From the IMG/VR virus record IMGVR_UViG_3300007513_000013, positions 54,472-118,471 of that record: 64,000 bases of DNA; one strand, 5' to 3'. A model generated the notes under the pieces. It saw only the letters and a program-made list of their open reading frames with translations. It was not told the origin of the DNA and searched no databases. The position numbers and the translations under genes are program-made. Source of the stretch: a virus. Shown here piece after piece: positions 2-20,690 of this stretch. How positions within the stretch are numbered: position 1 is the stretch's first letter; each line of letters opens with the position of its first letter.

Positions 2-121
2 TTAGAAGAGTTTGATACAAATATCCCAGGCCAAACACTGGTTTATGGAGATCCCAATAATGCCGGTGGATTAAATACAAAGCCTAAAAAGTTTGCTGAC
101 GAAGAAAATGAAGGAAGTTAA
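2..121 (+). CDS. C-terminal end of an unidentified phage protein (5' truncated)
   Basis: The window opens inside a reading frame of which the last 39 codons and a TAA stop are visible. The tail is polar and ends in an acidic run (KFADEENEGS). No motif is recognisable in so short a piece. The stop overlaps the start of the next gene by 14 bp, so the two are probably on one transcript. Function cannot be assigned. Confidence 0.6.
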   Translation, partial: LEEFDTNIPGQTLVYGDPNNAGGLNTKPKKFADEENEGS

Positions 122-707
122 TAATTTAGTAAAAGAATGGAAGAAATTTTTATTAAAAGAAGATAAAACCTACCAAATATATTGTGATATGGATGGCGTT
201 TTAGTAGATCTGGTTGGTGCCGTCTTAGAAAAGGCACAAAAAAATGCAAAAGATGAAAAGTTAAGAAAAGGTGTTGAAAAAATTCTAGCCATTGATTGGA
301 GATGGACGGAAAAGAATCCAAAATACCAGAAATCTTTAGATTATATTGATAACATGGTAAGCAATAATGTAGAATTTTGGGCAACATTGCCCCCAACATC
401 AGATAAAGACGTTTTGTGGAGTTATATTTCACAATATGATCCAATTATCCTTTCTCACCCATGGGATGGAGAGTCTGCAGAGGGGAAAAGAGTGTGGGTT
501 TCGAATTTAATAGATCCTCAACCAATTGATGTGATACTAACAGGCGACAAACACAGGCATGCTACAACAAAAGATGGTAAACCCAACATTTTAATTGATG
601 ATTTTGAAAAATATACTGTCCCATGGGAGCAAGCAGGGGGCATTGCCATACTACATACTTCTGCAGAGGACACAATAAGCAAACTTAAGGCTTTAATGGA
701 GCAATAA
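108..707 (+). CDS. HAD-superfamily 5'-nucleotidase-like protein with a capsid-targeting-like N-terminus
   Basis: This 199-aa protein carries the HAD motif I DMDGVLVD with the nucleophile and acid/base aspartates at residues 27 and 29. A late acidic motif LIDDF lies at residues 162-166. This pattern fits the phage and bacterial 5'(3')-deoxyribonucleotidases (C-type cytosolic nucleotidase family), which dephosphorylate dNMPs in the cytoplasm. I chose ATG 108; an in-frame TTG at 93 lies upstream inside the previous gene. Residues 8-18 (VKEWKKFLLKE) form an amphipathic helix ending in L-x-E, like the N-terminal signals of T4 internal head proteins and like the next gene. The enzyme might therefore be packaged, which is inference. 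The stop codon abuts the next ATG. Confidence 0.75.
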   Translation: MKEVNNLVKEWKKFLLKEDKTYQIYCDMDGVLVDLVGAVLEKAQKNAKDEKLRKGVEKILAIDWRWTEKNPKYQKSLDYIDNMVSNNVEFWATLPPTSDKDVLWSYISQYDPIILSHPWDGESAEGKRVWVSNLIDPQPIDVILTGDKHRHATTKDGKPNILIDDFEKYTVPWEQAGGIAILHTSAEDTISKLKALMEQ

Positions 708-1454
708 ATGAAGAAATTATTTGAAAATTGGCGAGGATTAATTAAAGAATCAAGGGGTCCAAAGGGTTTTCACTATAAAATTACACAAAGTTCCAAAACA
801 ATAGTGATTTTGCCTTTAAGTTTGCAAACTAATGAACCAGAACCAGGAAAAGCAGAGGGAAATGCAGAGGTTGTTCTTGAAAAACGCACAGATATTCCCA
901 ATTGGCAGCTAGCATGGTCTAATGCACCTGCTGATTCAGAGGGTGTTGGTACGATAATGTACCTAATGGCACTAGAATTAGCCGGAAATGAAGGTTTATC
1001 CCCCGATGATTACGATCAAAGTGATGATGCACTACGTGTTTGGGCCAAATTTATGCCCGAAAACAATAGATTTGGTGTTTCTAAGGTCAAAAAAGAGCAA
1101 TTTGCCCACGATAACGATGAAAATCCCTTCTTTTTTGTGTTCTACAAGCCGAATAGAGCCATTTTAAGCCGCTTTAAGGACCGTATATCGTATGAGGAGG
1201 GGTCGGAGGAAGAAAAGCCCGTCAAAGAGCCTGATATTGAGCCGTTCGACGTTGAAAATGACTGGGATTCTCTCTATGATGACGAAATATTGCAAGAAGA
1301 AGAGCCCTATCAGAAGAAAGTGAAGAAAAAACACCGCAGAATGAAGGTTAGACTGATTGGAAAGGGCAAAAACAAGCATAATGTGGGCAAAAAGATGAAA
1401 AAGCCGTCTTATAAGCGATCAAAAAGCGCTCCACCGGGCGCTGGTGGCTCTTAG
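708..1454 (+). CDS. Putative virion-associated protein with GNAT-like core and basic tail
   Basis: The 248-aa protein begins MKKLFENWRGLIKES, an amphipathic segment ending I-K-E-S that looks like a T4-type capsid-targeting and cleavage signal. Residues about 60-120 contain a W-x(3)-W-S...GVGTIMYLMALELA...SDDALRVWAKF pattern. I have seen this pattern in phage virion proteins with an acetyltransferase-like fold, but enzyme activity is not evident. The region near residues 160-195 is acidic and residues 200-248 are very rich in Lys/Arg, suggesting nucleic-acid contact. It starts immediately after the stop of the HAD gene. The assignment to a packaged protein is inference. Confidence 0.6.
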   Translation: MKKLFENWRGLIKESRGPKGFHYKITQSSKTIVILPLSLQTNEPEPGKAEGNAEVVLEKRTDIPNWQLAWSNAPADSEGVGTIMYLMALELAGNEGLSPDDYDQSDDALRVWAKFMPENNRFGVSKVKKEQFAHDNDENPFFFVFYKPNRAILSRFKDRISYEEGSEEEKPVKEPDIEPFDVENDWDSLYDDEILQEEEPYQKKVKKKHRRMKVRLIGKGKNKHNVGKKMKKPSYKRSKSAPPGAGGS

Positions 1455-1484
1455 TGACTAGTTATTGATAGCGAGGGAGGTTTT

Positions 1485-1685: not shown

Positions 1686-1688
1686 AAA

Positions 1689-1695
1689 CTATTTA
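1689..1695 (+). promoter_or_regulatory. CTATTTA element (candidate phage promoter)
   Basis: ACTATTTA lies 28 nt before ATG 1724. The same heptamer precedes six other transcription-unit starts in the window, so it may be a promoter element. No -35 box is obvious. Confidence 0.35.
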
Positions 1696-1723: not shown

Positions 1724-3658
1724 ATGCAGCATATGCCCTATAAGAACCTTGCAAGAATTATATTAGAAGAGTATTATAAGCTTATAAGCGAGTCAAAGGG
1801 CAAACTACCATCGACTATAAGCAAAATAGGTAAACCGGTTCGTATACCTACGCCTAGGCTTCCAACTATTAGGCCTGGTTTGTTAAACCTCGGAAAAACC
1901 AGCAAAATAGGACAGACTGGTCATGTTCCGGATGACGTGGGAGCGCCGCTCGAAGGTGAATTTACATATAGACCTTATGATCTTGAAGCGGCGCCGGTAA
2001 AAGAATTGACGCCTGCTGTTGGCGCGCCGCATGTAGAACCACATGGCCAGAACGTGCAGTATTTAGGGGTGCGCGAGGCTCCGGGTGAACCTGTAGATTA
2101 TAGCGCGCTAAGAACGGAACTTGGTGGCATGCTGGCGCCACATTTTCGAAAAGAACCTGTAAATCCACAAAACTATAGTAGGGTGGCAATGCCGGGAGAC
2201 GAAGGAAATTTAACGGTTCGGCCATCATATGAACAATTTGAAGAACTAGCACCAAGTGGTTTGCGCGATGTAATAAAAAGCATCACAGCGGATGTAAGGG
2301 CGGGGGTTATTACTCCACACGATGCTGCTAGCTTTGTAATCGAGTATTATCCCCGTGAAGCAATGCAATGGCACACAAGACGAGGATATCTTGCGGATGT
2401 AGAAAAAGCAGTTAAAGCAAAGATAAAAAGCATCGATCTTTACCCTAGTGCTGAAAAAGTTGCGTTAGAAAAGTTAAGATTGAAAGCTGCAGAAGCTTTT
2501 GAAGCAAACAGACCGGTGGGAGTTGCAAGCACCGGAAGGCTTGATTTATCAGGTGGTTCAACCATGGAAATACTAGCTCAAGAAAAGGCAGTTATAGACA
2601 GCATTGCTCCAAGCTTGGCGCGCCAGTATTATGGTAAGGATTATGGTAATTTAACACCTGGAGAAAGAGCGACTGTTCAGGGTATTAGTAAAAACACGCT
2701 TGATAGTATAAAAAATACGCCCCCAGCGCAACTTCGTAAAAATATTGCAAATTTGGAGGCGCGCCAAGGCCAACAGAACCCATGGGAAAAGGCTGGAGTC
2801 TCGAAAAAGCTATGGGACGAAGATGTTGCTGCGAGATGGGGACAATTAATTGATGAAGTACACCCAATGGTAGTAGATTATTATGTCGACGGAATTCGCA
2901 GTGGAAAAATTACGGGGCGCGCCCTACAACTTGCGCGTGGAACATGGATGAAAGATCCTTTTTATCGCGCAATTGTAAACAAACTGGAGGAACCCTCGCT
3001 TATCATCACTGATCATACCAAAGAACCTGCGATGACCGTTCGAAGGGACTTTAGCGAAGATCCGCGGGGCGTAACGGTTGTTGAACCCACAAAAACACAC
3101 GAGGATTACGCACCCGGGATGTCTCTTGAAGATTTTAAAGGCGTTGAGGCGCCGAGTAATTCGGAATTGGCGTGGGCTCGTCACAGGGCACATACGCAAA
3201 GGGGCCATGAGGATACAGGCCAACTCATTCCCGGAAGAACATATGGGATTCAAGCTTATGAGAGAGCGGTGAGCGAGATAGGGCGTCTAGGCATGCCTTT
3301 AACTCCCGGAGAAATAAGAGAATTGGCAACTAACAGCCCTACAGCATTGCGTGTATATCGCGACATTTTAAATTTGGGATGGGATGAGCACATTGCGCCC
3401 GGCCTCAGAACGCCACGAGTGCGCGTTCCGGAGCGTGGGTTCGATTGGGACACACACTTACAAGACGTGGAACGGGAGATACAAAGGTTTGGGTATTCTC
3501 GTTCGGCTGCAGATGTATGGGGTGAAAATCCACGTGGTGGTCTAACAGTTGTTGATGAGACACCGCCAAGAAGAAGAGGTCGCATGACAGAATTTGACGA
3601 AGCTAAAAAAATAGTACAGAAAGAATACCAAAAGTTATTGTTGGAAATCAAGAAATGA
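1724..3658 (+). CDS. Large putative internal virion protein, 644 aa
   Basis: I do not recognise a family. The N-terminus (ARIILEEYYKLISES) is an amphipathic helix ending I-S-E-S, and the C-terminus (KKIVQKEYQKLLLEIKK) is a second helix of the same style. Both resemble capsid-targeting/prohead-protease signals of T4 internal proteins. Residues 23-86 are clearly related to residues 12-72 of the next protein (shared KLPST.SKIGKP, LP.IRP and APLEGEF.Y.PYD), so the two genes are partial paralogues. The middle is polar, with Pro/Gly-rich linkers. GGAG at 1718 is only 2 nt from ATG 1724 but 11 nt from the in-frame ATG 1733, which may be the true start. The TGA overlaps the next ATG by 4 bp. Four GGCGCGCC palindromes fall in this gene. 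Confidence 0.65.
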   Translation: MQHMPYKNLARIILEEYYKLISESKGKLPSTISKIGKPVRIPTPRLPTIRPGLLNLGKTSKIGQTGHVPDDVGAPLEGEFTYRPYDLEAAPVKELTPAVGAPHVEPHGQNVQYLGVREAPGEPVDYSALRTELGGMLAPHFRKEPVNPQNYSRVAMPGDEGNLTVRPSYEQFEELAPSGLRDVIKSITADVRAGVITPHDAASFVIEYYPREAMQWHTRRGYLADVEKAVKAKIKSIDLYPSAEKVALEKLRLKAAEAFEANRPVGVASTGRLDLSGGSTMEILAQEKAVIDSIAPSLARQYYGKDYGNLTPGERATVQGISKNTLDSIKNTPPAQLRKNIANLEARQGQQNPWEKAGVSKKLWDEDVAARWGQLIDEVHPMVVDYYVDGIRSGKITGRALQLARGTWMKDPFYRAIVNKLEEPSLIITDHTKEPAMTVRRDFSEDPRGVTVVEPTKTHEDYAPGMSLEDFKGVEAPSNSELAWARHRAHTQRGHEDTGQLIPGRTYGIQAYERAVSEIGRLGMPLTPGEIRELATNSPTALRVYRDILNLGWDEHIAPGLRTPRVRVPERGFDWDTHLQDVEREIQRFGYSRSAADVWGENPRGGLTVVDETPPRRRGRMTEFDEAKKIVQKEYQKLLLEIKK

Positions 3659-6600
3659 AAAAAAAGAAAATCACCATCAAGATGAACGAATCAAAAAGCA
3701 AATTACCATCAACTTTAAGTAAAATAGGCAAACCTAGACCACCAGGGCCATCGCTTAAGCTACCAGTTATTAGGCCTGATTTATTAAAAATTGGCAGCCC
3801 CACTATTTCAAACACTCCACGAGCAGTAGATGCGCCACTTGAGGGTGAATTTGTATATAAACCTTATGATCCTGATGTATTAAAACCAGAGGTGCATTTG
3901 ATGCCGAAGCCGCCGGAGACACCTGATCTTGCGCGCGGGAAGCAGCCTGATTACGATTGGCTGGAAAGCGAGGTTACACCTGCGGCACCAGTAGAAACTC
4001 CAGTTATAGAGCCGTGGGAGTCGCCATTACGTTTAGACGACCGACAGCCATTAATGGCAGCCAGGGAAGAAGAAAAGCTGGTTAATGGTTTGAAAAATTT
4101 TCTTGCGAAAGAATACTCAAGCGGCCGGTATAAGGAAAAATGGTTAGATGCCGGGGTACCAGAAAAAGTGTACGATGAGCTTGTTTTGCCGCGCGTAATA
4201 AAAAAAATCAACGCCACGCCAATAATTATTTCAAGTCAAACACCTGATGGGCTTAACCCAGAAATATGGGAGAGGGCTGGTGGCGTATATGCCCCGCCGG
4301 GTGCAACTGGGACACCATGGGGGAGCGTACAAATAAGAACACCATCAGATATAGCAAAATATTCCACCGGAGGCATGTCGACCTTGGGAACACTGGCTCA
4401 TGAAGTTGGCCATGGTTTTTCTTATGATCCATATTTGGTTGCAATTTACAACAAATTCAGAAGTGCTCCTAATCCTGCGCAAGAGTTCCTAGCAAACAAA
4501 GCATTAGTTAGGAGCGGCATACCGGCTGAAATTATTCCGTATCTCAAATCGCACGGCTTAAGTGCAGCGCAGCAAGGTCTTTATCGTTACTACCCTCCGG
4601 AGCATGCGCAATCCATTTATATACCAACTGCTACACTGGCTCAAATGCAGGCTTATGAGCTAGATAGTTTACTTGATCTTGGTCAGCATGGCGGCCAGAT
4701 TGGAGACCGTCTAACACCTGGAGAATTGCTGGGTTATAAATGGGCGCAAAATTTTAAAAAATATCGTGCTGGAGACACTTCTCCAGAAGTGAAGGAAGCT
4801 GCTCTTCAGGAATATAAATGGCGAAGCAATATAGAGGAAATATATGCAGATGTAAAAGCAGTTGATGCTATTTTAAAGCGCCCAATGACAGGGAATGATA
4901 TTAGAGAAACTTGTATGGGAGTTCGTACTGTTGGTTCGGCTGCAATAAATGCTGTCCCTTCGTTTAGGGATTTTTTAAATTGCAAACACCCTGAAAAGGC
5001 TGCTTCTATATTCAACAAAATAGTCCAAATCGGCATTGCTGGTACTGGTGCTGCAGCTGTTGGTGCTTCCGAGGGAGATGGATCACAAAGCTTAAAAGAA
5101 GATACACAAAATAAAATAAACAAAATTATTTCTGAAGAAATTGAGAAAATGTTGTTAGAGGCACCTGTGATACCCGCTTCTTTTGCCGATTATTTAGATA
5201 CACCGCATGCAGCTGCTCTTCGAAGAAAAATGGACTTCTTAGGTTCAAAACATTCTCTCCCCTACCCTCAAAGCATGGACGTACGCCCGAAGGAAGAAAT
5301 CGGTGGTGGTTATACAGACGAATTTGGCTTGAAGCATCAAAAAGGTTCACAGCGCGTGACGCCCGGAGAGCAACTTAAGCACGAAATTGCAATGGGCGGC
5401 ATGAACTGGAAACAAGGTGTCCCGGGATATTATTTACCATGGGGCGGCCCTAAAGATCCTAAAGATCCCCGCGGGGCGCCAAGAGGTTGGATATATCAAG
5501 GGCCCGGAACACGAGAAGGTGGGGGTTCCACACCGGTTCCTCCGCAAAGAATGGGCGGCTCTAGTGCTCTAAAAAAAGATCCGAGTGGTTATTTTCAAAG
5601 ATTTGGAAAGGGCAAACGAACTTGGTCTGGTGTGCCAAGAGGAAAAAATAAAGGACTGAGATATGGCTACATTCCCGGCTCAGAATTAAAGGCGAAAGTG
5701 GACGAATACACCAAAACGAGAAACATACACAAAGATCTAGAAGACGAAACGTGGCAAAATTACAGAGGCCGCTCAAGTTTTTTCAGTGAAGATTCCGGAG
5801 ATTTAGATGGTCCGATTGTTCGCTCATATCAAGATCCAAAAACAGGCAAGTGGCATCAAACCACAATTGTACCGATGGCAGATCCATATAGGCAGGGACC
5901 GGATCCCAGTAAAGAGGGAAAGTCATCATGGTTAGATCTGTTTACTGGTGGCGGATCTGGTGTGGGATGGACTGGCATGCCACACACTGGTCCAAGCGCA
6001 TCGCGGCAGCTAGAATTAAACAAAGAAAGAATGCGTCGGTGTGCAAATGATCCTAAATGTCTTGATAAATTAAAATCAAAATGGGAAAAATCTAAATATT
6101 TCCCTGGAGCAACAGAAGGGTTCGGAAATCTTCCTCTCATGTGGCCTGGATGGGAACAACTTACAGATTATTGGACCGGAATACAGTCGCCCGGAACGCA
6201 TCGTGCTGCCCTACCAGATGAAAGCAGTTATCTACGACATTTGGGTGTACCCAAGAAAGCTACACAAAAGGTTTTTAATAAAAAAGATTGGCATTATTTA
6301 AACGACAGAGAGAAAGAGGTCGCTAGTTTTAACTATTGGGAGCGCAAAGAGAATAAAGATAGAATTCCTGAACTTTTGAAAAAACAAGAATCTGGTGATC
6401 TTACCGATAGAGAAAGACTGGAACTAAAAGGGTTAACGTATGTAAAGGAGTTTAGTAAAATCGCAGACAAATACAAAAAAGCGATGGGCCCGGGCTATGA
6501 ATATTCTAACCCTGCATATGCAGGTGACGTTCCTTATCAGTTTAATCTTTTCACAGATCCTATAGAAGTAACTCCAGCCGGTATACCGGCCATGCTTTGG

Positions 6601-8643
6601 AGAGGGCTAGCCAAGGGAGGCTTACGGAATATGTACAGATCATTGAAAAGTGGACAGCCTATGCCAACTGGTTTAGGTGGCGAAATTACCCCAAGGCTGG
6701 CTCATTGGTCAGAATCTCCGGTGTTGGCGAGGCTAGCTCCAAAAACAATAGACGCGGCGCAGTCTGCAGAGCTAATGCGCCAGGCGAAAGCCGCAACTGA
6801 TCCTACGCAGTTGGCCAAAGGAGCAGTAGTTGGGCCCGGGGCACTTCCGGGTGGTGAGCAAATAATACGTCCATATGAAATACCAACGCCCAAGGGGCCA
6901 AAGCCGTTTGAGCCGGTAAGAGTCGACGTAGAAAAAAGCGAAGCCTTTAAACACATTCATCAACAAGTTAAGGCTTTAAAAGATTGGCATCAAGCTAATT
7001 TTGGTGCAAGGAATTCGGTCGAAATTGAAAATATCAAAAAAGGAATAACACAACAAGCGGTAACTGGTAGGCTTTATGACCTAGAAGACCTCAAACATAT
7101 AATCATCGATCTTAAAACTAGTGGCGGTTGGGCAAGAAATCCATTTGCGGAGCTTTCACAAATAAAATATGATCCTAGGTTACTTGAAGAATCCTTAGAC
7201 AGCTTGAAAAACGTTGTTCTAGGAAAATTACAGAGTTTATTAAACGAAGACAAAGATATAGTTCTGGAAGAAATAAAGCCGCCCAAGCCCTACAAACCCA
7301 AGACTGTCAATTATAAATTTTCGTTTGGAAGAATTGGAGAGGAGCCTTTAGAAGAGCGTGATGGCGACAAACTTCATTATGGAGCATCGATGAATAAGCC
7401 TGTTTTGGCTTTTATCAATCTTGTTCTGGCCAAAAGAAAAGTCAAGCAACAGCAAACAGGAAAACCAATTAGAGCGCTAACTGATAAAGAGCTTTCAGAT
7501 TTGATTACATATACAAATTACAAAGGTGGCTCAAATAAGGTTAATAGAGCTTTAAGCAATCTTCGTTATAATCCAAAAAATCCAAAAAACGATAGAGATT
7601 ACTATAAAAAACTCAGCAAACAAGTAGGAATAACACAAGAACAAACACGAGAAATGTTAAAAGAACTTGAAATTGATAATGTAATTGGTGGCGTTCGATG
7701 GGGTGGGGCGAACAACAGGCAATCGCCGCGGGGTTATAGCCAATTCATGTCTAAAATGCTACAATATAAGTCCAATCCGGATTCTGAATTTCATGATGAG
7801 GCCACTAAAGTATTATATTATATGCAACACCGGCATGACAAGAGGAATACTGGTGCAAAAGGTTTAAAAAAATATTTAAATAAAAGACTAGAGAAAGAAG
7901 GGTATGGCAAAGATGCCATACAAACAATATATGGAAAAGGCGGATATGTAAAGGGTACCCTAAACTACTCCATCGTTATAAATGATAAATATGTCCTATC
8001 TTTGTATACAAAGTCTAAAAAACCTAAAGCATCTTCATATAAAATGAGACCAGACTTACATAAGATATCGGCTGATATTATCTTACGTAACCTCGATCCA
8101 GAAGAGTTAGGTGTTGGTGGTTATGATCGATTAAAACAGGACACGGAAATAGAAGGCTGGAATCAAAGAGAGATGGATAGAGTAGAGAAACTAGCTACTT
8201 GGGATGTTATTTCACCAGAGGACATGATGTCTGCACAAAAAATTGATGCACTAGTACCTCAAGAGGTGGACAAAGCAGTTGACCTAGATAGAGCAGAAGA
8301 GGAGCCAGATCTGCCATTGAGCAAAGAAAGACTAAATGAAGAAAAGCAACATATTGCGGTTGATATTGTACTAAAGTATAATAACGACTTTTCATTCTAT
8401 GGCTATGTGTTAAATCAAATTAGAGCAATTGATGGAATTACAATTGCAAAGGCGGATGAAGCTGGTGTTGTAGATGTTTCGCCCGAACGTCAACAAATTT
8501 TATTGCACCTTAAGTTTATGCCAATTGGCTCACTTTCACGTTATTTTTGGTATCTAAAAAATGAGCTAAAGAAGATACAGGATGCCAGTGGCGACAAGAT
8601 CGACAGTGTACAAATTCGCGGAATCCCACGACAAATAGATTAA
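3655..8643 (+). CDS. Giant multidomain protein: HExxH metalloprotease plus beta-lactamase-like serine hydrolase
   Basis: The 1662-aa protein has several parts. Residues 12-72 repeat the N-terminal module of the preceding protein. A zinc-metalloprotease motif HEVGH is at 249-253, with a possible third ligand in EEIYAD near 392-397. A hydrophobic helix leads to a helix ending M-L-L-E-A at 499-503. A long Gly/Pro/Trp-rich region follows. A second LxE helix (SLLNED, 1194-1199) precedes a class-A beta-lactamase/D,D-peptidase-like domain with SxxK as S1245-MN-K1248, YTN at 1286-1288 and KGG at 1428-1430 in place of KTG. The last 100 residues look like a small alpha/beta domain. Peptidoglycan or host proteins are plausible targets; both activities are inferred from motifs. 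ATG overlaps the upstream TGA. Confidence 0.7.
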   Translation: MKKKKITIKMNESKSKLPSTLSKIGKPRPPGPSLKLPVIRPDLLKIGSPTISNTPRAVDAPLEGEFVYKPYDPDVLKPEVHLMPKPPETPDLARGKQPDYDWLESEVTPAAPVETPVIEPWESPLRLDDRQPLMAAREEEKLVNGLKNFLAKEYSSGRYKEKWLDAGVPEKVYDELVLPRVIKKINATPIIISSQTPDGLNPEIWERAGGVYAPPGATGTPWGSVQIRTPSDIAKYSTGGMSTLGTLAHEVGHGFSYDPYLVAIYNKFRSAPNPAQEFLANKALVRSGIPAEIIPYLKSHGLSAAQQGLYRYYPPEHAQSIYIPTATLAQMQAYELDSLLDLGQHGGQIGDRLTPGELLGYKWAQNFKKYRAGDTSPEVKEAALQEYKWRSNIEEIYADVKAVDAILKRPMTGNDIRETCMGVRTVGSAAINAVPSFRDFLNCKHPEKAASIFNKIVQIGIAGTGAAAVGASEGDGSQSLKEDTQNKINKIISEEIEKMLLEAPVIPASFADYLDTPHAAALRRKMDFLGSKHSLPYPQSMDVRPKEEIGGGYTDEFGLKHQKGSQRVTPGEQLKHEIAMGGMNWKQGVPGYYLPWGGPKDPKDPRGAPRGWIYQGPGTREGGGSTPVPPQRMGGSSALKKDPSGYFQRFGKGKRTWSGVPRGKNKGLRYGYIPGSELKAKVDEYTKTRNIHKDLEDETWQNYRGRSSFFSEDSGDLDGPIVRSYQDPKTGKWHQTTIVPMADPYRQGPDPSKEGKSSWLDLFTGGGSGVGWTGMPHTGPSASRQLELNKERMRRCANDPKCLDKLKSKWEKSKYFPGATEGFGNLPLMWPGWEQLTDYWTGIQSPGTHRAALPDESSYLRHLGVPKKATQKVFNKKDWHYLNDREKEVASFNYWERKENKDRIPELLKKQESGDLTDRERLELKGLTYVKEFSKIADKYKKAMGPGYEYSNPAYAGDVPYQFNLFTDPIEVTPAGIPAMLWRGLAKGGLRNMYRSLKSGQPMPTGLGGEITPRLAHWSESPVLARLAPKTIDAAQSAELMRQAKAATDPTQLAKGAVVGPGALPGGEQIIRPYEIPTPKGPKPFEPVRVDVEKSEAFKHIHQQVKALKDWHQANFGARNSVEIENIKKGITQQAVTGRLYDLEDLKHIIIDLKTSGGWARNPFAELSQIKYDPRLLEESLDSLKNVVLGKLQSLLNEDKDIVLEEIKPPKPYKPKTVNYKFSFGRIGEEPLEERDGDKLHYGASMNKPVLAFINLVLAKRKVKQQQTGKPIRALTDKELSDLITYTNYKGGSNKVNRALSNLRYNPKNPKNDRDYYKKLSKQVGITQEQTREMLKELEIDNVIGGVRWGGANNRQSPRGYSQFMSKMLQYKSNPDSEFHDEATKVLYYMQHRHDKRNTGAKGLKKYLNKRLEKEGYGKDAIQTIYGKGGYVKGTLNYSIVINDKYVLSLYTKSKKPKASSYKMRPDLHKISADIILRNLDPEELGVGGYDRLKQDTEIEGWNQREMDRVEKLATWDVISPEDMMSAQKIDALVPQEVDKAVDLDRAEEEPDLPLSKERLNEEKQHIAVDIVLKYNNDFSFYGYVLNQIRAIDGITIAKADEAGVVDVSPERQQILLHLKFMPIGSLSRYFWYLKNELKKIQDASGDKIDSVQIRGIPRQID

Positions 8644-11634: not shown

Positions 11635-13506
11635 ATGTCGTCCAAAAATGTATATACTCTTTTCAAAACATTGCGTGAGTACCTTAGTGAAGAAACGGTA
11701 CAACTAGATATATCCTTACCAGAAGAAGAAAATGTCGGAGAAATTGAAGCCAAAGAAGCTCGATGGGTCGATAACTTATCTGATAGTGACCCGGGCGTAT
11801 TCAATTTAAAGCTAGTAAAATCACAATTCAAGTCTCCCAAAAAAGATATGCTACAGGAACAGGGTTTACATGGATTTGACTTGCCATGGGCGTGGAAAGA
11901 TAAAATATTAGCACTGGCTCCGCCTGCAGAACCTGTGGATTCAGTTCCGGGCGGCGTGATTCTTCCCGGACCTCAAAAAGCCAAAGAAAATCCACTCAAA
12001 GGCACAGATTTGGAGCACATCCAGCCAGAAGTGACACACCCAAAAGAACTGGCTGGTCAATATATAATAGAGCCTTTCGAAATCACTGCTCGTTCTAAAG
12101 AAGAGCAAGATAAAGCATATAAAGACTCACTTAAACAAGTTTTTTTACCGCCGTCCGGACTGAAAGATTCTTCTGAGACGGGATATACAGCCGGGCGTAA
12201 ATGGAGGCAATATGGAGAGTCGCGAATGGCGCGAATGTTGACTGATGTTGCACAAGAGTGGAAAAATAATCAAGAAGATTTAGTCGACGAAAAGGGAAGG
12301 TGGGGCCCCATTGAATATTGGGATGTGTCCAAAAAGGGAGGGGGCGAGTTTCCACCGCATGTCAGCCACCAATCAGGGAGAGATGTTGATATCGCAACGT
12401 TTCTCAAATCAAAGGCCCGCGGCTCTGCTAATATGGCCACCATTAGTACCGTTGATATGTATAGGATGTATAGGTTGGCTGAAATGTATATTAATTGGTC
12501 AGCGGATAATCCGGAGCCGCACTGGATTGACAAAGAAACAGGACTAGCTAAAAATCCGATGGTGATATTCTGGAATCAAGAATTAATTGATGCAACAAGA
12601 AAATGGGCAGAAAAAAAACACAAAGTGAATGGTGAGTGGGTATACAAAAACAATGTCAGCGAAATGACCAATGATGCAATGTTTGGCACGTGCACAAAAC
12701 GGAATTCTCGGGAGGAGTGCGTAAAGCGCAAAAAAACATCTGATGTTAACAGGGGGCCGCGGACGTTTCGTCATGAACCTGGACATGCAAACCATTATCA
12801 TATACGTACAGACCGAAGTTATGGAAAAAGAAACAAAATAAGATATGCAAACAAAGGTGAAAAACCATCTGTTTATATGCCTCCGCCTGAGCCGGAAGGG
12901 TTTGATCCAAAGGTGCGCATGAAAACTGCAGAGGATGAAGCAAGAGAATGGAAATGGAACGACAAGACACAACAGTGGGAAAATATGTTTGAGGGCGGCG
13001 CGGAGCAGGTTTATAACGTAGGCGGCGGAGGGCGGCCAGATCAAACAGTCCCAGTACCAGTGCCGACGCAAAAACTGTCGACGGTGCCCCCCAGTAATAA
13101 AATTAAAAAAGCGGCAAAAAAGAAGAGGCGGCACCGGGGCGTTTTTAAAAAGGCACCTAGTGGGCCCGAGACTATGAAAAACCTTATTAAGAGTGGGATA
13201 TATGGGCCATTGGATGAGCAGATGGGGGCGCCCATGGATCCTATTCAGCAACAAATTCAAATGTCCGTAATGGCAGCACAAGAACAACTCGGTCCTTTGT
13301 TTGGTCAGTTGCAAGGAATGATTGTGCAAATGCGCACTTTAAACACCCCAGCAGCCAATCAAGAGGTAAAAAAGCAAACTAATAGAATTGAACTAATTAC
13401 TAATGACTTAAACGACGGAGATATTGATGTCATGGCCGCAATTGGTCAATTGGGTAACATTGCAAACGACATGGGCAAGAAAATGCAAAAGTTAACACAA
13501 GGGTAG
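11635..13506 (+). CDS. Putative virion murein endopeptidase, MepA-like (M74 type)
   Basis: The 623-aa protein contains the signature of penicillin-insensitive murein endopeptidases. HxSHQxGRDVD spans residues 242-252, giving zinc ligands H245 and D252, and H387-Y-H389-IR supplies the third ligand. In MepA these bind zinc for cutting D-Ala-mDAP cross-links in the periplasm. E. coli MepA is less than half this length. Here the domain (about 170-400) sits between an N-terminal helix ending YLSEE (16-20), a Pro-rich linker, a basic stretch (KKAAKKKRRHRG) and a C-terminal helical domain preceded by GPLDEQ. The flanking LxE motifs suggest a packaged and processed precursor. Start ATG 11635 follows AGAGG. 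No signal peptide is present, so delivery with the virion would explain access to peptidoglycan. Confidence 0.8.
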   Translation: MSSKNVYTLFKTLREYLSEETVQLDISLPEEENVGEIEAKEARWVDNLSDSDPGVFNLKLVKSQFKSPKKDMLQEQGLHGFDLPWAWKDKILALAPPAEPVDSVPGGVILPGPQKAKENPLKGTDLEHIQPEVTHPKELAGQYIIEPFEITARSKEEQDKAYKDSLKQVFLPPSGLKDSSETGYTAGRKWRQYGESRMARMLTDVAQEWKNNQEDLVDEKGRWGPIEYWDVSKKGGGEFPPHVSHQSGRDVDIATFLKSKARGSANMATISTVDMYRMYRLAEMYINWSADNPEPHWIDKETGLAKNPMVIFWNQELIDATRKWAEKKHKVNGEWVYKNNVSEMTNDAMFGTCTKRNSREECVKRKKTSDVNRGPRTFRHEPGHANHYHIRTDRSYGKRNKIRYANKGEKPSVYMPPPEPEGFDPKVRMKTAEDEAREWKWNDKTQQWENMFEGGAEQVYNVGGGGRPDQTVPVPVPTQKLSTVPPSNKIKKAAKKKRRHRGVFKKAPSGPETMKNLIKSGIYGPLDEQMGAPMDPIQQQIQMSVMAAQEQLGPLFGQLQGMIVQMRTLNTPAANQEVKKQTNRIELITNDLNDGDIDVMAAIGQLGNIANDMGKKMQKLTQG

Positions 13507-13509
13507 ACA

Positions 13510-16500
13510 ATGTTAGATATATTTAATGAATCAGAACATCCTTTAGAGGGGCTAGAAGAATTAATTCAAGATCTTTTTTCATTTTCTAATGAAAGATTTG
13601 GATTCCAGAGACCTCCCAGTTTATTTCTTAGGTCTGATTCAGAAAACGCAAAAAACGCATTAGGTAGAACCGGTTCTTACGACCCGTCAAAAATGGAAAT
13701 TATGATCTTTGTAGATAAGCGACACCCAAAAGATATTTTGCGCTCTATATCTCACGAACTAATCCACCATATGCAAAACTTAAGAGGTGATTTTGAACAT
13801 GAATTCGACACATCAGAAGGATATGCCCAAAACGATCCACACCTAAGAAACATGGAAGAAGAGGCTTATTCTGCTGGAAATCTGTGTTTCAGAGATTGGG
13901 AAGACTCACGAAAACAACAATTAGCAGAATCAATATGTTATAACAATATTATAGGAGGAGATGACATGTCAGAGGATAAAAGAATTCCACTGAAAGAGTG
14001 GAAAAATGCAGAACTTAATTCACAATTGATGAAGAAGTTTGGTCTTGTAAATGAAGAATCAGGTGCAGGAGCCGAGCAACTTTATCACGAAGAAACCACT
14101 GCAGAAAATGTTAGTGGCGAAGAAACCCTAGAAGAAGACGAAGAACCAGAGAGTACCAACTTCTCTACAACCTTAAATGAGAGAAAAGAACTTGTTGTAG
14201 AGAAGAGGGCTGAATATTATCGTGCTCCAGGGGAAAATTATAGATTTGATCGGGATGAAGCCAATAAAGGCAAGGGTGGAGTGTATTCGCAAAATATTGC
14301 GCAAGTATATGATCGCTGTGTTGCAGAGGAAGATCAAGATTGTATAGACGATCTTGAAATGTCCGGAGATATATATCAATGGGCTGACCGGCAGGGTAGA
14401 GCAGCCAAAAAGGCAAAACAATATTGTATATGGGGCCATTGCTTTCCCCTGTCTTCTAAAAAGAAGCCAAAAGGGAAGCCTAAAAAGAAGCCAAAAGGGA
14501 CATATCAAGAAGGTATTGCATCCTATCTCCCTGTCCACCCTGACAAGCTTAAAACACTTTTAAACGAAGGCTGGCTTGAAGATTGGTGGCGAAGTTCCAC
14601 AGGGCAATCCGGACAGTCTATTCAAGTGGGGCCCGGCCAGAAACAATACCAGAAGGTTCTGAATCAAGGCGCTTGGGTTGATGTTCCGAAGGGTACGTAT
14701 GAACTTCCGGATTATGTTACACCTGCAGACGTGGCGCCTTATATGTATCATAAAGGTGGAAATCCGGCGGCAGAGGCCGCAGAGCATGCCAAACGACGGC
14801 TAAATCCATCATATGGAGCGGTGGATTTTCACGCCCCTCTAAAAGCCGGTCCTTCTGACGTCGAGATGATTCGTAGACATCAGAACCCTAGGCAAAACAT
14901 GGCATATGCCAATCAGCAAATTGCTAAATTACCGGGTGGAAAACAAAGGATGACTACTTTAACCCCCACTGAAGAATTTGCTATAGACATGGGATTAAGC
15001 GCGCTCGATATATACGGTGGTTTTGGGGCGCTAAAATGGGCTAGAGCAATGAAAGCAGCTAAAGCAGCAGAAGAAGCGGCAAGGGTATCCAGAATTGTGA
15101 AATCTGGGGAGAAAGTGGCGCCAAAATTTGGTGTACCTCCGGAATTACCACCACCTCGAAAACCTGCTGAGTTGCCGCACACAGTTATTGATCCAGATGA
15201 TGTATATTACATACTCGATGACGCCGACATTATATCTTCAACGAAATCAAAGCCTGTGCAGCCTCCGCCAGTGCCAAAACCCGTGCGACCACCGCCGGTA
15301 CCGGTCGAAAAGGCGGCGATGAGTCTAGATGACCTTCCGGTGGTGACTGCGGCAATGAGAGGCGAAGAAGCGGCGCAACTTAGTAAGTGGCAAAGAATTA
15401 AAGATTGGACTAAAGATTTGCCCGTTAAAATAAAAGAGGCATCCGGAAAGGCATGGGAGGCTACAAAAACAGGAGCAAGAAAGACAGGTGAATATTTAGA
15501 TCCCAGGACTACGAAATTTCCTACCACATTCAATCAACTTCTTGGGCCGGGTAAACAAAAGTTCTTCAGTAATAGAACTGCATTGAACCTTTTTGCTACT
15601 GCAGCTGGAACCGGTGCTAGCGCAGAAGCTCTATATTATTGGTTTGGTGGCGATGGTCCGTTCATTGAACATGAAGAGGGTAAGAATTATCCATCAAACG
15701 CTATCTTACAAAAAGATCCAAAATCAGGTGAGGTGGTTTCTTATTACCTAACCCGAGAACAGTTTATGGGCGAACCCAGATCGTTTTTTGATCGTACACC
15801 AGATCCCACAAAGTTCGTTAAAGTGTGGACTACAAATGGCAGAGAAGCCAATGATTTAGTTGAAGGTCTTTACGCAGAACAGCACAGAAAAGAGTTTTTT
15901 GCTAAGGTTGGTAATTCTGAAGCTTCTATGAAAGATTACACAGAACTCCGAGAGAAACAACTAGCAGGATTTAAACAATTATATGATGACGGTCGCGTAA
16001 ATAAAGCGGTGCTTGATGCAAAACTAAGACAAATAATGGCAGAATACAAATTAGTAACTAAAACGAAGGAGAAGAGTAAAGTTGATTGGCAACTGACAAC
16101 ACCCGAGCAAAAAGAACTTGTCCGGACTTATTTAAGATCATTAATGTTAGAAGATTATGTCCGAGAGTTTGGGCCGGGTGCAGTTCCAGGGATTGGAGAA
16201 ATATACACGTTCACAGACTATAAAGGTCAAAGAGTAAAGATAGAAAGCTCTGAGGATGATGGCGATAGTTACGGCATAAAAATAATTGGAGTTGAAGATC
16301 CTGATGGTGACGGCCCCTTAACAAAAAAAGATGCGGAAGAGAAAATAAAAAGAAACTGGGTGCTTGGACATATTGGGGGTCGCGAAGATCAGTGGTCTCA
16401 AGGAATGCATTTCCCAATTGCACAGACCGGAAAGCCAAAACACCCTATCCTATACACCCCTCAATCTGAACGTGAGTGGCGAAAGGGATATTTTGCTAAC

Positions 16501-16731
16501 TTATTTGGCGATGATGAACCTGCCGGCTTAAGACCTCCTCGCTCTCCAGCTCTTATGGACAGGAAAACCAGAATGACGGATGAGGAAGAGGTACGCAAAG
16601 AAGATGAGTATGTATACGAAAACAAGGCCCAGGCACTCTTTAAAAAACCCTACAATGAACTAGGCGAAGACGATAAACAAAAAGTTCGCGATGCTGTCGA
16701 GCTAGACGAACTTGAGTGGGTTAACGAATAA
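13510..16731 (+). CDS. Large putative internal virion protein with N-terminal HExxH metalloprotease
   Basis: In this 1073-aa protein, HELIHH at 82-87 with a downstream EEEAY (about 118) marks a zinc-peptidase-like domain of about 140 residues. That domain ends in LAES (138-141). Residue 153 is a Met preceded in the DNA by a perfect AGGAGG, suggesting two ancestral genes now fused. The second part starts with IPLKEW...LMKKFGLVNEE, then a basic KKPKGKPKKKPKG run, another LxE helix (LLNEGWLEDWW, 351-357), Pro-rich linkers and one hydrophobic segment near 700. The C-terminus is acidic and helical. It begins 4 nt after the MepA gene and its TAA overlaps the next ATG, so it is cotranslated. Roles beyond the protease motif are unknown. 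Confidence 0.65.
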   Translation: MLDIFNESEHPLEGLEELIQDLFSFSNERFGFQRPPSLFLRSDSENAKNALGRTGSYDPSKMEIMIFVDKRHPKDILRSISHELIHHMQNLRGDFEHEFDTSEGYAQNDPHLRNMEEEAYSAGNLCFRDWEDSRKQQLAESICYNNIIGGDDMSEDKRIPLKEWKNAELNSQLMKKFGLVNEESGAGAEQLYHEETTAENVSGEETLEEDEEPESTNFSTTLNERKELVVEKRAEYYRAPGENYRFDRDEANKGKGGVYSQNIAQVYDRCVAEEDQDCIDDLEMSGDIYQWADRQGRAAKKAKQYCIWGHCFPLSSKKKPKGKPKKKPKGTYQEGIASYLPVHPDKLKTLLNEGWLEDWWRSSTGQSGQSIQVGPGQKQYQKVLNQGAWVDVPKGTYELPDYVTPADVAPYMYHKGGNPAAEAAEHAKRRLNPSYGAVDFHAPLKAGPSDVEMIRRHQNPRQNMAYANQQIAKLPGGKQRMTTLTPTEEFAIDMGLSALDIYGGFGALKWARAMKAAKAAEEAARVSRIVKSGEKVAPKFGVPPELPPPRKPAELPHTVIDPDDVYYILDDADIISSTKSKPVQPPPVPKPVRPPPVPVEKAAMSLDDLPVVTAAMRGEEAAQLSKWQRIKDWTKDLPVKIKEASGKAWEATKTGARKTGEYLDPRTTKFPTTFNQLLGPGKQKFFSNRTALNLFATAAGTGASAEALYYWFGGDGPFIEHEEGKNYPSNAILQKDPKSGEVVSYYLTREQFMGEPRSFFDRTPDPTKFVKVWTTNGREANDLVEGLYAEQHRKEFFAKVGNSEASMKDYTELREKQLAGFKQLYDDGRVNKAVLDAKLRQIMAEYKLVTKTKEKSKVDWQLTTPEQKELVRTYLRSLMLEDYVREFGPGAVPGIGEIYTFTDYKGQRVKIESSEDDGDSYGIKIIGVEDPDGDGPLTKKDAEEKIKRNWVLGHIGGREDQWSQGMHFPIAQTGKPKHPILYTPQSEREWRKGYFANLFGDDEPAGLRPPRSPALMDRKTRMTDEEEVRKEDEYVYENKAQALFKKPYNELGEDDKQKVRDAVELDELEWVNE
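13953..13968 (+). promoter_or_regulatory. Internal Shine-Dalgarno and in-frame ATG
   Basis: AGGAGG (13953-13958) is followed after 7 nt by ATG 13966, in frame with the surrounding gene at codon 153. It could start a shorter 921-aa product (MSEDKRIPLKEW...). It looks like the relic or active start of a gene fused to an upstream protease gene. Confidence 0.5.
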
Positions 16732-19700
16732 TGGGTGGTGCTGCAGGACACATGGCACATCCTTTTGATTTGCCCGAAGTAAATACTGGAAATGATTTAA
16801 TCAATTTCTTTCAAACAGCGGTAGATCATTTACAAACAAATGCCGGTAGTGTTAAAATTGATGGAGTTAACGTAAGCTTTAAATTAATTGACGGACCTCA
16901 AGGCAAAGAATTTGCAGTTGATCGTGGAAGTACAAAACCAATTGACATTGAAGGGATAACAATAAGCAGAGTTAACGAAAGATTTCCAGAAGGTCATGGA
17001 ATGCGGCCAGCTATTACAACTCTATTGACAATCCTCAATGAGGCTCTCCCAAATATAAAACGACAATTGCAGCAATTGGGAATGTGGTATGACCCCACGA
17101 AATTCTTAAACACAGAATATGTCTTAGGACAAACAAACGTAACTGTATATGATAAAAACTTTTTAGCTATTCACGGCTTAAATCAGTTTTATGAGAAAAC
17201 CAATCAAAGAACCGGCGTTTCTAGACCGGGAACTAAAAGACCCTTAAACAATAAAGCTCCGAGTACAGAAGTAGAATATAGCGACGATCTAATGGAGTCT
17301 TTAGTTGCAGAAATTGGTAAAGTAGCTGGTAGGTATGGATTTGAAGTTTATGGATCCGTGCCAACAGAATCCATGAAGCCTGTTAATTTTTCTAGTACCT
17401 TAAGTACCCCTTTTACTGTTAATTATGGATATGAAGAAAATGGTGAGGTGTTCTCAGACACAAAAACCCTTCAAGAATGGTTGGCAGAGGCCAATAATCC
17501 CCGAGGGGCAACTGTCAATTTAGCCGATGGTAGAAAACAAGGGGCCATGAGCAAATTAGTCTACACAGAAATTTTAAATGGCACTTTAATAACTGAATTG
17601 TTGCAAATTGGTGAAGATTTTTGGCAGAACATGCAGGACGGGGGAAATATAGAAGGAACGGAAGTAGAATTAGCTGTAGATGGCGCAATATTCTACCATG
17701 CAACCAGATTGTTGGGAAATGATGTTTTAGAGACACTCACAAGCCCCATGGGAGACGTTCTAAGCCACGAAGGAGTGGTTATTAGGGGGTTATCCTCTGT
17801 GCCGGTTAAAATCACCGGAGAATTCATCGTACAAGGCCTACAAACGGCCTTTAGAGAGCAGAAAGAACTTTATGAGCAGAATATACCGTTTGCAGGCGAA
17901 AAGTCCCATATAGCCTTCATTCCGGGCGGATTTAAGCCTCCGCACAAAGGGCATCTAGAAATGGTTAAATATTACTACAATAAAGTGGGCCCAAATGGGA
18001 CAGTTGTTGTTTTAATGGGCGGTGGTGGAAAACAGCCGAGAACAATCAATGGAAAACCCATAACTTTGCAAGATTCTATGAATATATGGGAAACATATTT
18101 AAGAAATGATCCTGGAATTGATTGGCCCTCTGATAGAGTGGAGTTTCAGAGTGTTGAAGGTGTTGGTCCAATTGCGCCTATTATAGATTATATAAAAGAG
18201 AAAGCAGATCCAGAAACTGAAGTTATTCATTTGGGCGCTGGTGCGAAAGATGCTAATAGATGGAAAATGATGCTGGATAATTCCAAAAACAACCCGAGAG
18301 GAGTTGAATTACATATTGATCCTGCTCCAAATATGGTAGATTCAGAAGGAAATCCATTGAGCGCAACTGTTATGCGAAGATCTGTTGAAGAAAAAGATCT
18401 AGACACCTTTAAGAGATTTATTCCCGACACCAGCCTTCATACAGCTGAAGATTTGTTTGTTATGCTGAGCGGTGCTTTATTAACAGAAGGAAAGGAGGAT
18501 GACCCACTTCCTGTGGGTATTTTTCTGCGGTTAATTGAAGAAGAGGTAGATAAAGAAATATTAAATGAAAATTTATGGGACACTTTAGATAATTGGAGGC
18601 GCAGATACGGCCGTAAAATCCTTAATCCAATCGAAACAACGGCAGGAGTGTTGGGCGATCTTATCGGTAAACAAGAGGCCGGAAAAAAAGCAGAACACCT
18701 TACAGATAAATTAGCAGACACTATTACATCTCCATTTGATCCTTTAATTAATCCAGTGGTTGATTATCTATCTGGTCGGAGAGACATTGATCCGCCAAAA
18801 GGGCCGGGCGGAAGTACACCAGTTATAGTACCTCCATATGACCCTAGGACAGAAAAAATAAATCAACTTTTAAAACAAAGAGAAGACTGGAGTAAAAAAC
18901 TGCATTTAAAATATTTACAAGACAGAGAAGAAGCTTATTATCGAAATCCGGAAAGATGGGAAGGGAAATTACCCGAAGAAGGATATTGGGGACCTCATGA
19001 GAATAGCCCGACAAGTAAAACGACTTACGATGCGTGGTTAAAATCTGGCGCGTACAGAAAACATTTTCCAAACTTAACACGAATTAGCACTGATGACCCA
19101 AGATTAAAATGGTATTGGAAAGATATGGATCCCTCCAAATTAGAACAAGTATATGGTACTCGCGATGGACGTTGGCACGACCCACTAAAAGAGTCAAACA
19201 CACTTTCACCAGATATGTTTCTAGAATTAATTGAAGAAGCTATAGCCAGCACAGATTTATTTGGTGGCAGGAAAGACGATGCCAATATGTATCCTCAATG
19301 GAATGCTCAAGCTGCTGATGATGCAATATATGATAATGACGATACAATACCGGTAACTGAAGCTAGTGGAATGGCAGCCGGTGATGTTTCTGGTGGCGGT
19401 GTAGGAAATAGGCCTCCGGGAGCTTGTGATGATGAATACTTAATTCGTGAAGAAGACAGTGAAACACCTGAAGTTAAAAAACCTGCTGAAGTTAAAAAAC
19501 CTGCTGAAGTTAAAAAACCTGCTGAAGTTAAAAAACCTGCTGAAGTTAAAAAACCTGCTGAAGTGGCTAGCTGGCAGGATGACCCGAGCTATGAATCATC
19601 TCTCCCTCCTCAAAACAAGCAAGAAGAAACCCACGAAGACAAAATAAAGGGTATGAAGTTTTATAATAACTTAAAAGACGATACATTTAAAGAGGCTTTT

Positions 19701-20690
19701 AACAAGGCCTATAAAACATATGGCTGGAAAGGGGCTTATGTCTGGAAGAAGACATATGAAAACTTCATTAAGAAGGGAGACGGTCCGGATGATGCAGCAT
19801 ACTTTGCCAGCGATGCAGTTACTTCTTTGAAGTGGCCCGGGAAACAAAAAATCACCAAGCAGAGGGCGCGCCCGTACCACCCGCTAGAGCCCGGCTCATA
19901 CACAAAGATTTATACCGGTAAAAACCGGCCATCAGATGAAGAGATAAAAAGAGATCCAGTGAAGCCGCCGCCAAAAGGTTCACAAAAATACTCCTATACA
20001 GATCAGGGCAAACAAATAGCTAATAATGTAAGAAACGACCTGATCAAAGCATATACACAGCCATGGTCCCCGTTTGCGCAGCAAGGAATCAGAAAACATG
20101 GAAAGAAAAAGTATTTTAACGAGATCCTTCCGAAAATTACAGAAAAACTACGTGGCATCAGCTTTAATATTGAAAAAGGTAAAAAGACCGTTAGTGATCA
20201 TGCCGCGGCATATTACGCGCCCGGGACGAATAGTGTCACTCTCCCCGGACGCTTTGATGCAAGCACAGAAGAACTTGAAACACTGCTGGTACATGAAATA
20301 GGGCACTCTTTGGCGCCAGGATTTCTTACTAAACTTGGCCTAGGTGTTATTGATCCGGGTGATAACAAGCAAGATTTATTAGCGTTGATAGACAAGGAAA
20401 AAGTGCACAAAGGGTTCAGGCCCGGGCAGAAGTCGATTATGCACCGGGTTGAGTATGGCAAAGATCCGCATGGTGCGAATCCCTCGGAGATACAAACCAA
20501 CTTAGCTCATTTAAAATATTACCTTATGAAAAAGGGCCACATGGGCAATGATGGGAAAGTAACCGGAAAAGTTATTGACAAAATTCGCCAAGGAAAAATA
20601 AAAGTACCCGGTAATAATTTTGTAAAGAATATAAATTCCAAAATGGATTCGCGCGAACTAGCTCAGCGTATGAATAATATTTGGAATTAA
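16731..20690 (+). CDS. Multidomain protein: ligase-like domain, HxGH nucleotidyltransferase and HExxH protease
   Basis: The 1319-aa protein starts GHMAHPFDLPEV. At 42-45 it has K-I-D-G, the lysine motif I of the ATP-dependent ligase/capping nucleotidyltransferase superfamily, with ERFPEGHG further on. Residues about 392-550 form a cytidylyltransferase-type domain: GGFKPPHKGH (HxGH 405-408) and SATVMRR (544-550), as in NMN/phosphopantetheine adenylyltransferases. LLTEG (583-587) and EILNEN (609-614) mark LxE helices that separate the enzyme part from a linker region. Five AEVKKP repeats (914-943) follow. A metalloprotease motif HEIGH lies at 1188-1192. Nicked-RNA repair or NAD-related chemistry are both possible for the first part, and neither is proven. 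ATG overlaps the upstream TAA. Confidence 0.7.
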   Translation: MGGAAGHMAHPFDLPEVNTGNDLINFFQTAVDHLQTNAGSVKIDGVNVSFKLIDGPQGKEFAVDRGSTKPIDIEGITISRVNERFPEGHGMRPAITTLLTILNEALPNIKRQLQQLGMWYDPTKFLNTEYVLGQTNVTVYDKNFLAIHGLNQFYEKTNQRTGVSRPGTKRPLNNKAPSTEVEYSDDLMESLVAEIGKVAGRYGFEVYGSVPTESMKPVNFSSTLSTPFTVNYGYEENGEVFSDTKTLQEWLAEANNPRGATVNLADGRKQGAMSKLVYTEILNGTLITELLQIGEDFWQNMQDGGNIEGTEVELAVDGAIFYHATRLLGNDVLETLTSPMGDVLSHEGVVIRGLSSVPVKITGEFIVQGLQTAFREQKELYEQNIPFAGEKSHIAFIPGGFKPPHKGHLEMVKYYYNKVGPNGTVVVLMGGGGKQPRTINGKPITLQDSMNIWETYLRNDPGIDWPSDRVEFQSVEGVGPIAPIIDYIKEKADPETEVIHLGAGAKDANRWKMMLDNSKNNPRGVELHIDPAPNMVDSEGNPLSATVMRRSVEEKDLDTFKRFIPDTSLHTAEDLFVMLSGALLTEGKEDDPLPVGIFLRLIEEEVDKEILNENLWDTLDNWRRRYGRKILNPIETTAGVLGDLIGKQEAGKKAEHLTDKLADTITSPFDPLINPVVDYLSGRRDIDPPKGPGGSTPVIVPPYDPRTEKINQLLKQREDWSKKLHLKYLQDREEAYYRNPERWEGKLPEEGYWGPHENSPTSKTTYDAWLKSGAYRKHFPNLTRISTDDPRLKWYWKDMDPSKLEQVYGTRDGRWHDPLKESNTLSPDMFLELIEEAIASTDLFGGRKDDANMYPQWNAQAADDAIYDNDDTIPVTEASGMAAGDVSGGGVGNRPPGACDDEYLIREEDSETPEVKKPAEVKKPAEVKKPAEVKKPAEVKKPAEVASWQDDPSYESSLPPQNKQEETHEDKIKGMKFYNNLKDDTFKEAFNKAYKTYGWKGAYVWKKTYENFIKKGDGPDDAAYFASDAVTSLKWPGKQKITKQRARPYHPLEPGSYTKIYTGKNRPSDEEIKRDPVKPPPKGSQKYSYTDQGKQIANNVRNDLIKAYTQPWSPFAQQGIRKHGKKKYFNEILPKITEKLRGISFNIEKGKKTVSDHAAAYYAPGTNSVTLPGRFDASTEELETLLVHEIGHSLAPGFLTKLGLGVIDPGDNKQDLLALIDKEKVHKGFRPGQKSIMHRVEYGKDPHGANPSEIQTNLAHLKYYLMKKGHMGNDGKVTGKVIDKIRQGKIKVPGNNFVKNINSKMDSRELAQRMNNIWN
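19470..19559 (+). repeat. Five tandem 18-bp repeats encoding EVKKPA
   Basis: Five identical copies of GAAGTTAAAAAACCTGCT run head to tail, then a partial sixth. Perfect identity suggests recent slippage expansion. The product is a charged Pro/Lys linker between domains. Confidence 0.9.

Follow-up and report, generated by a model that had tools for sequence, protein, structure and literature searches.

Several neighbouring genes of a T4-like virus encode very long proteins in which unrelated enzyme domains follow one another, and this raises the question of why a virus should make such enzymes as single polypeptides. A sequence-only reading of the locus had proposed that they are packaged polyproteins, which are cut after (L/I)xE into separate enzymes and injected with the DNA. 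The window, which is the whole 64,000-nucleotide stretch analysed here, comprises bases 54,472-118,471 of a 118,471-bp IMG/VR fragment. In this record and its relatives, we found short helical tags, internal copies of these tags, fixed junctions, variable fusion and, in the relatives, a head protease. Judged from these sequences, the proteins are likely to be head cargo of a T4-like myovirus, which would be tagged, cut by a gp21-type protease and released as enzymes that leave with the DNA.

Giant ORFs and their domains

The ORFs at 93/108-707, 708-1454, 1724-3658, 3655-8643, 11635-13506, 13510-16731 and 16731-20690 were reproduced, as were the three HExxH motifs that had been pointed out in them (HEVGH 4399-4413, HELIHH 13753-13770 and HEIGH 20292-20306). 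The domains, motifs and neighbouring gene are as follows.

108-707, + strand: NT5C-type deoxynucleotidase (PHROG 5'-3' deoxyribonucleotidase, E 2e-19)
3655-8643, + strand: 1662-aa ORF with zincin motif HEVGH (4399-4413), SxxK motif (7387-7398) and LLNE site (7195-7248)
12199-12807, + strand: MepA/M74-like murein endopeptidase domain (Pfam E 5e-5, NCBIfam E 9e-6, both under the curated cut-off)
13510-13932, + strand: zincin core (HELIHH) at the opening of the 1073-aa ORF (AF2 pLDDT 85)
16734-17885, + strand: ligase-like covalent nucleotidyltransferase domain (KxDG 16848-16871, EGVV 17766-17786, KITG 17805-17825)
17898-18410, + strand: NMN-adenylyltransferase (NMNAT)/cytidylyltransferase-like domain (PHROG cytidyltransferase, E 4e-6; alignment with relatives)
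18513-19238, + strand: insert of about 220 aa between two similar helices (VGIFLRLIEEEVDKEILNE and LSPDMFLELIEE), missing in relatives
19353-19388, + strand: VTE/ASGMAAGDV in the 1319-aa ORF, like the gp23 maturation site of relatives
20292-20309, + strand: zincin motif HEIGHS in the C-terminal extension of the 1319-aa ORF (from sequence)
20742-21467, + strand: conserved neighbour gene, separate in most relatives and fused to the ligase/NMNAT ORF in one (L110)

The 1319-aa ORF carries unrelated domains, ligase-like, NMNAT-like and zincin motifs, in one polypeptide. Its ligase-like domain has the KxDG nucleotidyl-lysine motif together with the Glu residues of motifs III and IV, which are features of the nucleic acid ligase superfamily, and among 32 homologues K41, D43, G44, E128 and the motif KxDGxN are invariant, with E346 nearly so. 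The AF2 model of this domain (pLDDT 88) has RNA and DNA ligases as its best Foldseek matches, at a weak level (E 0.03 or worse, TM about 0.2). The nucleotidyltransferase sites of the sequence-only reading were reproduced, and a cytidylyl/NMN-adenylyltransferase domain was found with a PHROG E value of 4e-6. The zincin core of the 1073-aa ORF shares 38-49% identity with the first part of ORFs of 203-332 aa that six relatives encode, and its zincin-like AF2 model gave weak M61/YbeY-type matches.

Two further sites held in part. The MepA domain was found and its H..HxxxxxxD and HxH motifs are visible, but the Pfam score is 23.3 bits against a cut-off of 25, and we therefore name the domain MepA-like and do not file it as M74 although the metal-binding motifs can be seen. 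At the serine-hydrolase site, SxxK..KGG is visible but is recognised by no profile and no PDB sequence; relatives of this segment were sought and none was detected. Comparison of the SxxK segment, the MepA segment and the ligase profile with PDB sequences gave nothing convincing, and family searches with the 1662-aa ORF returned no match. When the C-terminal part of that ORF and the 623-aa ORF (11635-13506) were scanned against IMG/VR, only a twin assembly was found, and this near-identical twin is also the sole source of homologues for the giant ORFs' extensions. The twin is 99% identical, keeps the same giant ORFs open and ends at the same base; since its ORFs are almost identical, dN/dS cannot be derived from it.

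Other features of the record were noted alongside. Inside the giant cluster, positions 8719-10863 encode a MopE-repeat and VWA protein with a lipobox-like start, which has homologues in G033, G028 and G002, and positions 19476-19530 hold an array of the 7-aa repeat PAEVKKP; in the twin, this gene is shorter by 21 bp, a difference that one repeat unit would account for. Further along the window lie a Tubulin/FtsZ-like protein (22405-23496; Pfam E 2e-7, just below the cut-off, and PhuZ PHROG E 0.003), an M90-like zincin (28414-29091; weak Pfam match below the cut-off) and a large cluster of glycosyltransferase, sugar-nucleotide and carbamoyltransferase-like genes (30343-44431). Upstream of the window, at C1:30939-40144, the record has about a dozen short paralogues of 64-111 aa starting MKVGDLV(K/R). 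The two differently named assemblies stop at the same base inside an ORF (window position 64000, G001 position 85938), which suggests a repeat or an assembly break.

Helical tags at the ends and inside of proteins

Of the (L/I)xE cleavage-like signals that had been claimed, the part that stood is the helix before the site; the bare motif did not stand out. Raw [LI]xE counts are at chance in six of the seven ORFs, for example 16 against 15.8 expected from shuffling in the 1662-aa ORF and 12 against 11.2 in the 1073-aa ORF, and a mild excess is seen in the 1319-aa ORF alone (20 against 12.9, p 0.02). Raw counting was rejected as evidence for this reason, and since the plain motif is not enriched, a list of such sites proves little by itself. 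In helix context, LxE is enriched in the 623-aa ORF (p 0.006).

Two N-terminal helices recur in the record, namely class A, of the form MKxTKxxLxxIIxEE (consensus MKLTKSKLKQIIKEEL), and class B, of the form MKxLxENWRxxLxE (consensus MKLLFENWRRYLKED). Tag profiles were built solely from related viruses and run on the record with shuffled controls. Class A gave 11 sites of at least 10 bits, against 0.05 expected per shuffled genome, and class B gave 4 sites, against none expected. Five of the 11 class A sites are internal or C-terminal; in record coordinates they include aa 152-175 of the gene at 42866, where MK is retained, aa 165-182 of the gene at 44167, aa 128-142 of the gene at 28572 and aa 186-201 of the gene at 44715. 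The fifth, at aa 490-503 of the 1662-aa protein, is the MLLEA site of the sequence-only reading. Internal copies occur in relatives too. In the giant cluster, the following helices were located.

108-161, + strand: class-B-like N-terminal tag MKEVNNLVKEWKKFLLKE of the NT5C nucleotidase (weak, 5.3 bits)
708-749, + strand: class B tag MKKLFENWRGLIKE of the 248-aa ORF 708-1454 (14.5 bits; no shuffled match of at least 8 bits)
1733-1792, + strand: class-A-like N-terminal helix MPYKNLARIILEEYYKLISE of the 644-aa ORF 1724-3658 (from sequence; below the profile threshold)
3599-3646, + strand: class-A-like C-terminal helix EAKKIVQKEYQKLLLE, directly ahead of the start of the next ORF (from sequence; below threshold)
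5104-5160, + strand: internal class A tag TQNKINKIISEEIEKMLLE (aa 484-502 of the 1662-aa ORF; MLLEA), 10.2 bits
11647-11691, + strand: N-terminal helix NVYTLFKTLREYLSE of the 623-aa ORF (from sequence only)

Among the individual sites of the sequence-only reading, LIKES is backed by the relatives-only profile at 14.5 bits and MLLEA is an internal tag that reaches 10.2 bits with the same kind of profile. LLKED matches its tag profile, but weakly (5.3 bits), and LISES follows a class-A-like helix that scores under the threshold. YLSEE, LLNED, LLNEG, LLTEG and ILNEN are plausible candidate cleavage sites, whereas LAES in the 1073-aa ORF had to be given up as a conserved site, as it is not kept in the zincin homologues. 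Most individual internal LxE sites are unproven, since raw counts in most of the giant proteins equal chance. In addition, two paralogous segments share a boundary, which is marked by LISE/SKGKLPSTISKIGKP in one ORF and by MNE/SKSKLPSTLSKIGKP in the following one (the slash denotes the joint).

Because the class A search pattern itself contained IxEE, column conservation from the scan alone was set aside, and the link to (L/I)xE was retested with prefixes cut before the site, using class A tags from this record and from gp6-retrieved genomes. For class A, 24 of 26 truncated prefixes continue to [ILV]xE at positions 12-14, where the background is 2.6% per position; for class B, 24 of 40 reach [ILV]xE at a fixed offset. 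In alignments of 34 or 35 tagged proteins that are for the most part unrelated, the only columns conserved to at least 90% were W8 and E14 in class B and L8, I12 and E14 in class A. Neither tag pattern is present in 992 ORFs, mainly tail genes, that flank gp6 in 79 relatives. The tags are homologous short peptides, and their counts are therefore not independent events; similarity of tags within genomes is significant for class B (p 0.0025) but not for class A (p 0.14).

The tagged proteins of relatives match SAM lyase (three), DUF3293 (two), Nudix, AAA, protein kinase and GNAT families as well as LigT and tRNA-ligase phosphodiesterase domains. Of the proteins encoded here, one with a Nudix domain (E 1e-16) bears a tag, as does the NT5C nucleotidase, whose tag is weak. 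Such a cargo would fit roles in taking over the host, in salvaging nucleotides or in countering defences during entry.

The joint before the ligase-like domain and the shuffling of units

The best evidence of the case comes from the junction of the ligase-like domain, which the sequence-only reading had not noticed, as it had not noticed the VTE/ASGMAAGDV site. The 1319-aa ORF has no N-terminal tag and opens with MGGAAGHMAH, so that M/GG sits where relatives show LxE/GG. Here, the joint is a gene boundary, since the upstream ORF ends in ELEWVNE, its stop overlaps the ATG, and the next ORF begins M/GG.

16705-16760, + strand: junction ...DELEWVNE stop / ATG GGAAGHMAH, at the place of the relatives' LxE/GG joint (from sequence)
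1299-1451, + strand: basic C-terminal module EEPYQKK...KRSKSAPPGAGGS after ILQE, at the end of the 248-aa ORF

A scan of IMG/VR for MGGAAGHMAH-type starts, together with known loci, gave 106 non-redundant homologues in 50 clusters. The GG start is preceded by Met alone in 15 of them, by [LI]xE in 86, by another hydrophobic-x-E in 3 and by LLxC in 2. Among the non-Met starts, P1 is Glu in 98% and P3 is L, I or V in 100%, P4 is mostly hydrophobic, and P5-P12 have no residue in common. The stretch before GG ranges from a short T4-like tag (MITFAQFLLE/GG or MKTFKQYYNTILNE/GG) to 922 aa of another protein. Where at least 100 aa lie upstream in frame, [LIV]xE/GG is found at 47 of 50 joints, whereas the motif precedes 2 of the 306 GG pairs elsewhere in these ORFs. 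As homologues that start with M/GG lack LxE, the motif is not part of the fold. In its sequence, the LxE/GG joint is the T4 gp21 cleavage rule, in which gp21 cuts after Glu in L/I-X-E (PMC9026906).

Around this joint, the units are fused in different orders. An NMNAT-type motif precedes the ligase-like domain in 30 homologues and follows it in 17, and none was detected in 39 homologues with a short upstream stretch. Fused ORFs add other segments, for example an extra HExxH segment in L453. In the cultured Flavobacterium phage immuto, NMNAT and two HExxH segments share one 907-aa ORF with an NT5C nucleotidase gene after it, and this set is also present in the window. The 639-aa ORF of the cultured Microcystis phage Mel-JY01 is a fusion of NMNAT and ligase with IIAE/GG at the joint, and it lies near the terminase gene; in the record studied here, the giant ORFs are not near the baseplate genes. 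The basic C-terminal module of about 45-50 aa, which ends in KPSYKRSKSAPPGFGGS and a stop, closes unrelated ORFs in about 20 IMG/VR records (including L467-L487), and it is mostly placed directly after [LIV]xE.

The head protease, other explanations and relation to known cargo

No PF03420 (gp21-like) protease and no gp23 were found in the 118-kb fragment, but nearly all large relatives with the tags or the ligase-like domain have the protease. Genes resembling gp25 and gp6 of the T4-like baseplate, assigned by family resemblance with gp6 relatives found, lie near the end of the record (58208-60447), and in relatives the head module follows tens of kb past gp6 (in G002, gp21 at 89 kb and gp23 at 92 kb); the fragment therefore most likely stops short of it. 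An S77 protease scoring above the curated cut-off occurs in 13 of 22 gp6-related records. Among large records, it occurs in 14 of the 16 with tags and in 16 of the 17 with the ligase-like domain, two counts that cover feature-bearing relatives; both cultured phages have it, and many of the records are fragments. In G040, G041, G047, G049, G050, G052 and G054, the S77 match lies within 570-831-aa ORFs, as if fused to another head protein. The gp23 maturation site is kept in relatives as LL[RK]E/A or S and LL[RK]E/ASSMAAGDV, to which VTE/ASGMAAGDV of the 1319-aa ORF is similar.

The core of the packaged-polyprotein proposal has strong comparative support in the GG junction, the internal tags, the fused, split and permuted domains, the protease in relatives and the specificity of gp21; set against it are several listed sites at chance, a fragment that holds neither gp21 nor gp23 and the untagged 1319-aa ORF, and from the evidence we infer rather than observe targeting, virion presence through packaging, cleavage, injection and the substrates of the enzymes. 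In such a scheme, the short helical tags with their terminal (L/I)xE probably attach to the prohead core and bring the proteins into the head, where the gp21-type S77 prohead protease of the virus would cut after Glu. Several cargo genes would have been lengthened by fusion, giving long proteins whose joints carry (L/I)xE, so that a single translation product would be split inside the prohead into separate enzymes. The released set would consist of the nucleotidase, the ligase-like and NMNAT-like nucleotidyltransferases, the MepA-type endopeptidase and the zincins, which would exit alongside the DNA upon infection.

Unrelated enzyme domains and HExxH motifs that share one polypeptide also recall the polyvalent proteins of Iyer et al., invasion proteins that would be packaged whole or processed by their own embedded zincins, with LxE being incidental; that paper proposes release by embedded peptidases, and the N4 virion RNAP is packaged uncut (PMC5512222). 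We consider this unlikely here, as it does not predict a P1 Glu and a P3 L, I or V before the conserved GG in 47 of 50 fused ORFs, nor LxE at the close of short N-terminal tags, and several fused ORFs, including the 639-aa fusion of Mel-JY01, have no visible HExxH. Another possibility is that the tags target proteins which are indeed packaged, while internal tags are passive remnants of fusion and the fused proteins stay uncut in the head. Internal class A copies often retain the MK start, as simple fusion would leave it, but P1 and P3 are nearly invariant in the 50 fused ORFs while P5-P12 drift, which is unexpected for remnants and makes this explanation quite improbable. That LxE reflects only chance or composition in acidic, helical proteins agrees with the shuffled counts in six of the seven ORFs and could yet apply to individual sites, LAES among them; where the tags and the GG junction are concerned, it is contradicted by the tag profiles, the truncated-tag test, the junction statistics and the M/GG homologues that place the motif outside the fold, and as a general account we regard it as very improbable indeed.

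The preferred reading, head cargo cut by the prohead protease, would extend the internal-head-protein cargo of T4 to polyproteins. As in T4 IPI-III and Alt (PMC9026906, PMC9958956), a short N-terminal propeptide ends in an L/I-X-E cleavage site, and 10 residues of IPIII are enough for packaging (PMC9026906); the S77 protease and gp23 are found here in relatives, and T4 cargo can likewise be enzymatic and counter host defence. Unlike in T4, there is a second tag class (A), tags lie inside or at the end of proteins, many genes per genome are tagged, and fused enzymes are joined at LxE. The polyvalent proteins of phages and conjugative elements (PMC5512222) are similarly multi-domain, with peptidase, nucleotide-active and peptidoglycan-active domains and likely co-delivery with DNA, but the joints here fit a head protease instead of an embedded metallopeptidase, and the ligase-like and NMNAT units permute around one joint. 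In the giant phage SPN3US (PMC10052503), many internal ejection proteins are cut after Glu by the gp21-related gp245, several times per protein; the cuts described in the available text of that report remove N-terminal propeptides and in one case a C-terminal one, and separate enzymes joined by cut sites are not reported there. P1 DarB (PMC9024508), a giant protein of 250 kDa, is taken into the head via an N-terminal signal, and LxE-joined units as seen here are not described in the text available for it. The 'polyprotein' DNA polymerase of hot-spring viruses (PMC7689252) is a different system. In open-licence papers, we found no description of these tags or joints.

We lean towards the view that head-protease sites serve as separators of a modular cargo code in T4-like viruses of sea and fresh water, whose units could be freely fused, permuted and split because the prohead protease would cut them apart after loading. 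Many enzymes seem to be head-tagged in this mostly marine T4-like family, and a whole tool set could enter with the DNA. Both Microcystis phage Mel-JY01 and Flavobacterium phage immuto are cultured, and the reading can be tested in them. If it is true, sequence alone would be enough to recognise internal head cargo in many uncultured viruses and would yield candidate takeover or anti-defence enzymes that act when infection begins (SAM lyase, kinase, phosphoesterases and many unknowns). It would also mean that tailed phages use polyprotein processing by the capsid protease, in the service of a large set of injected enzymes.
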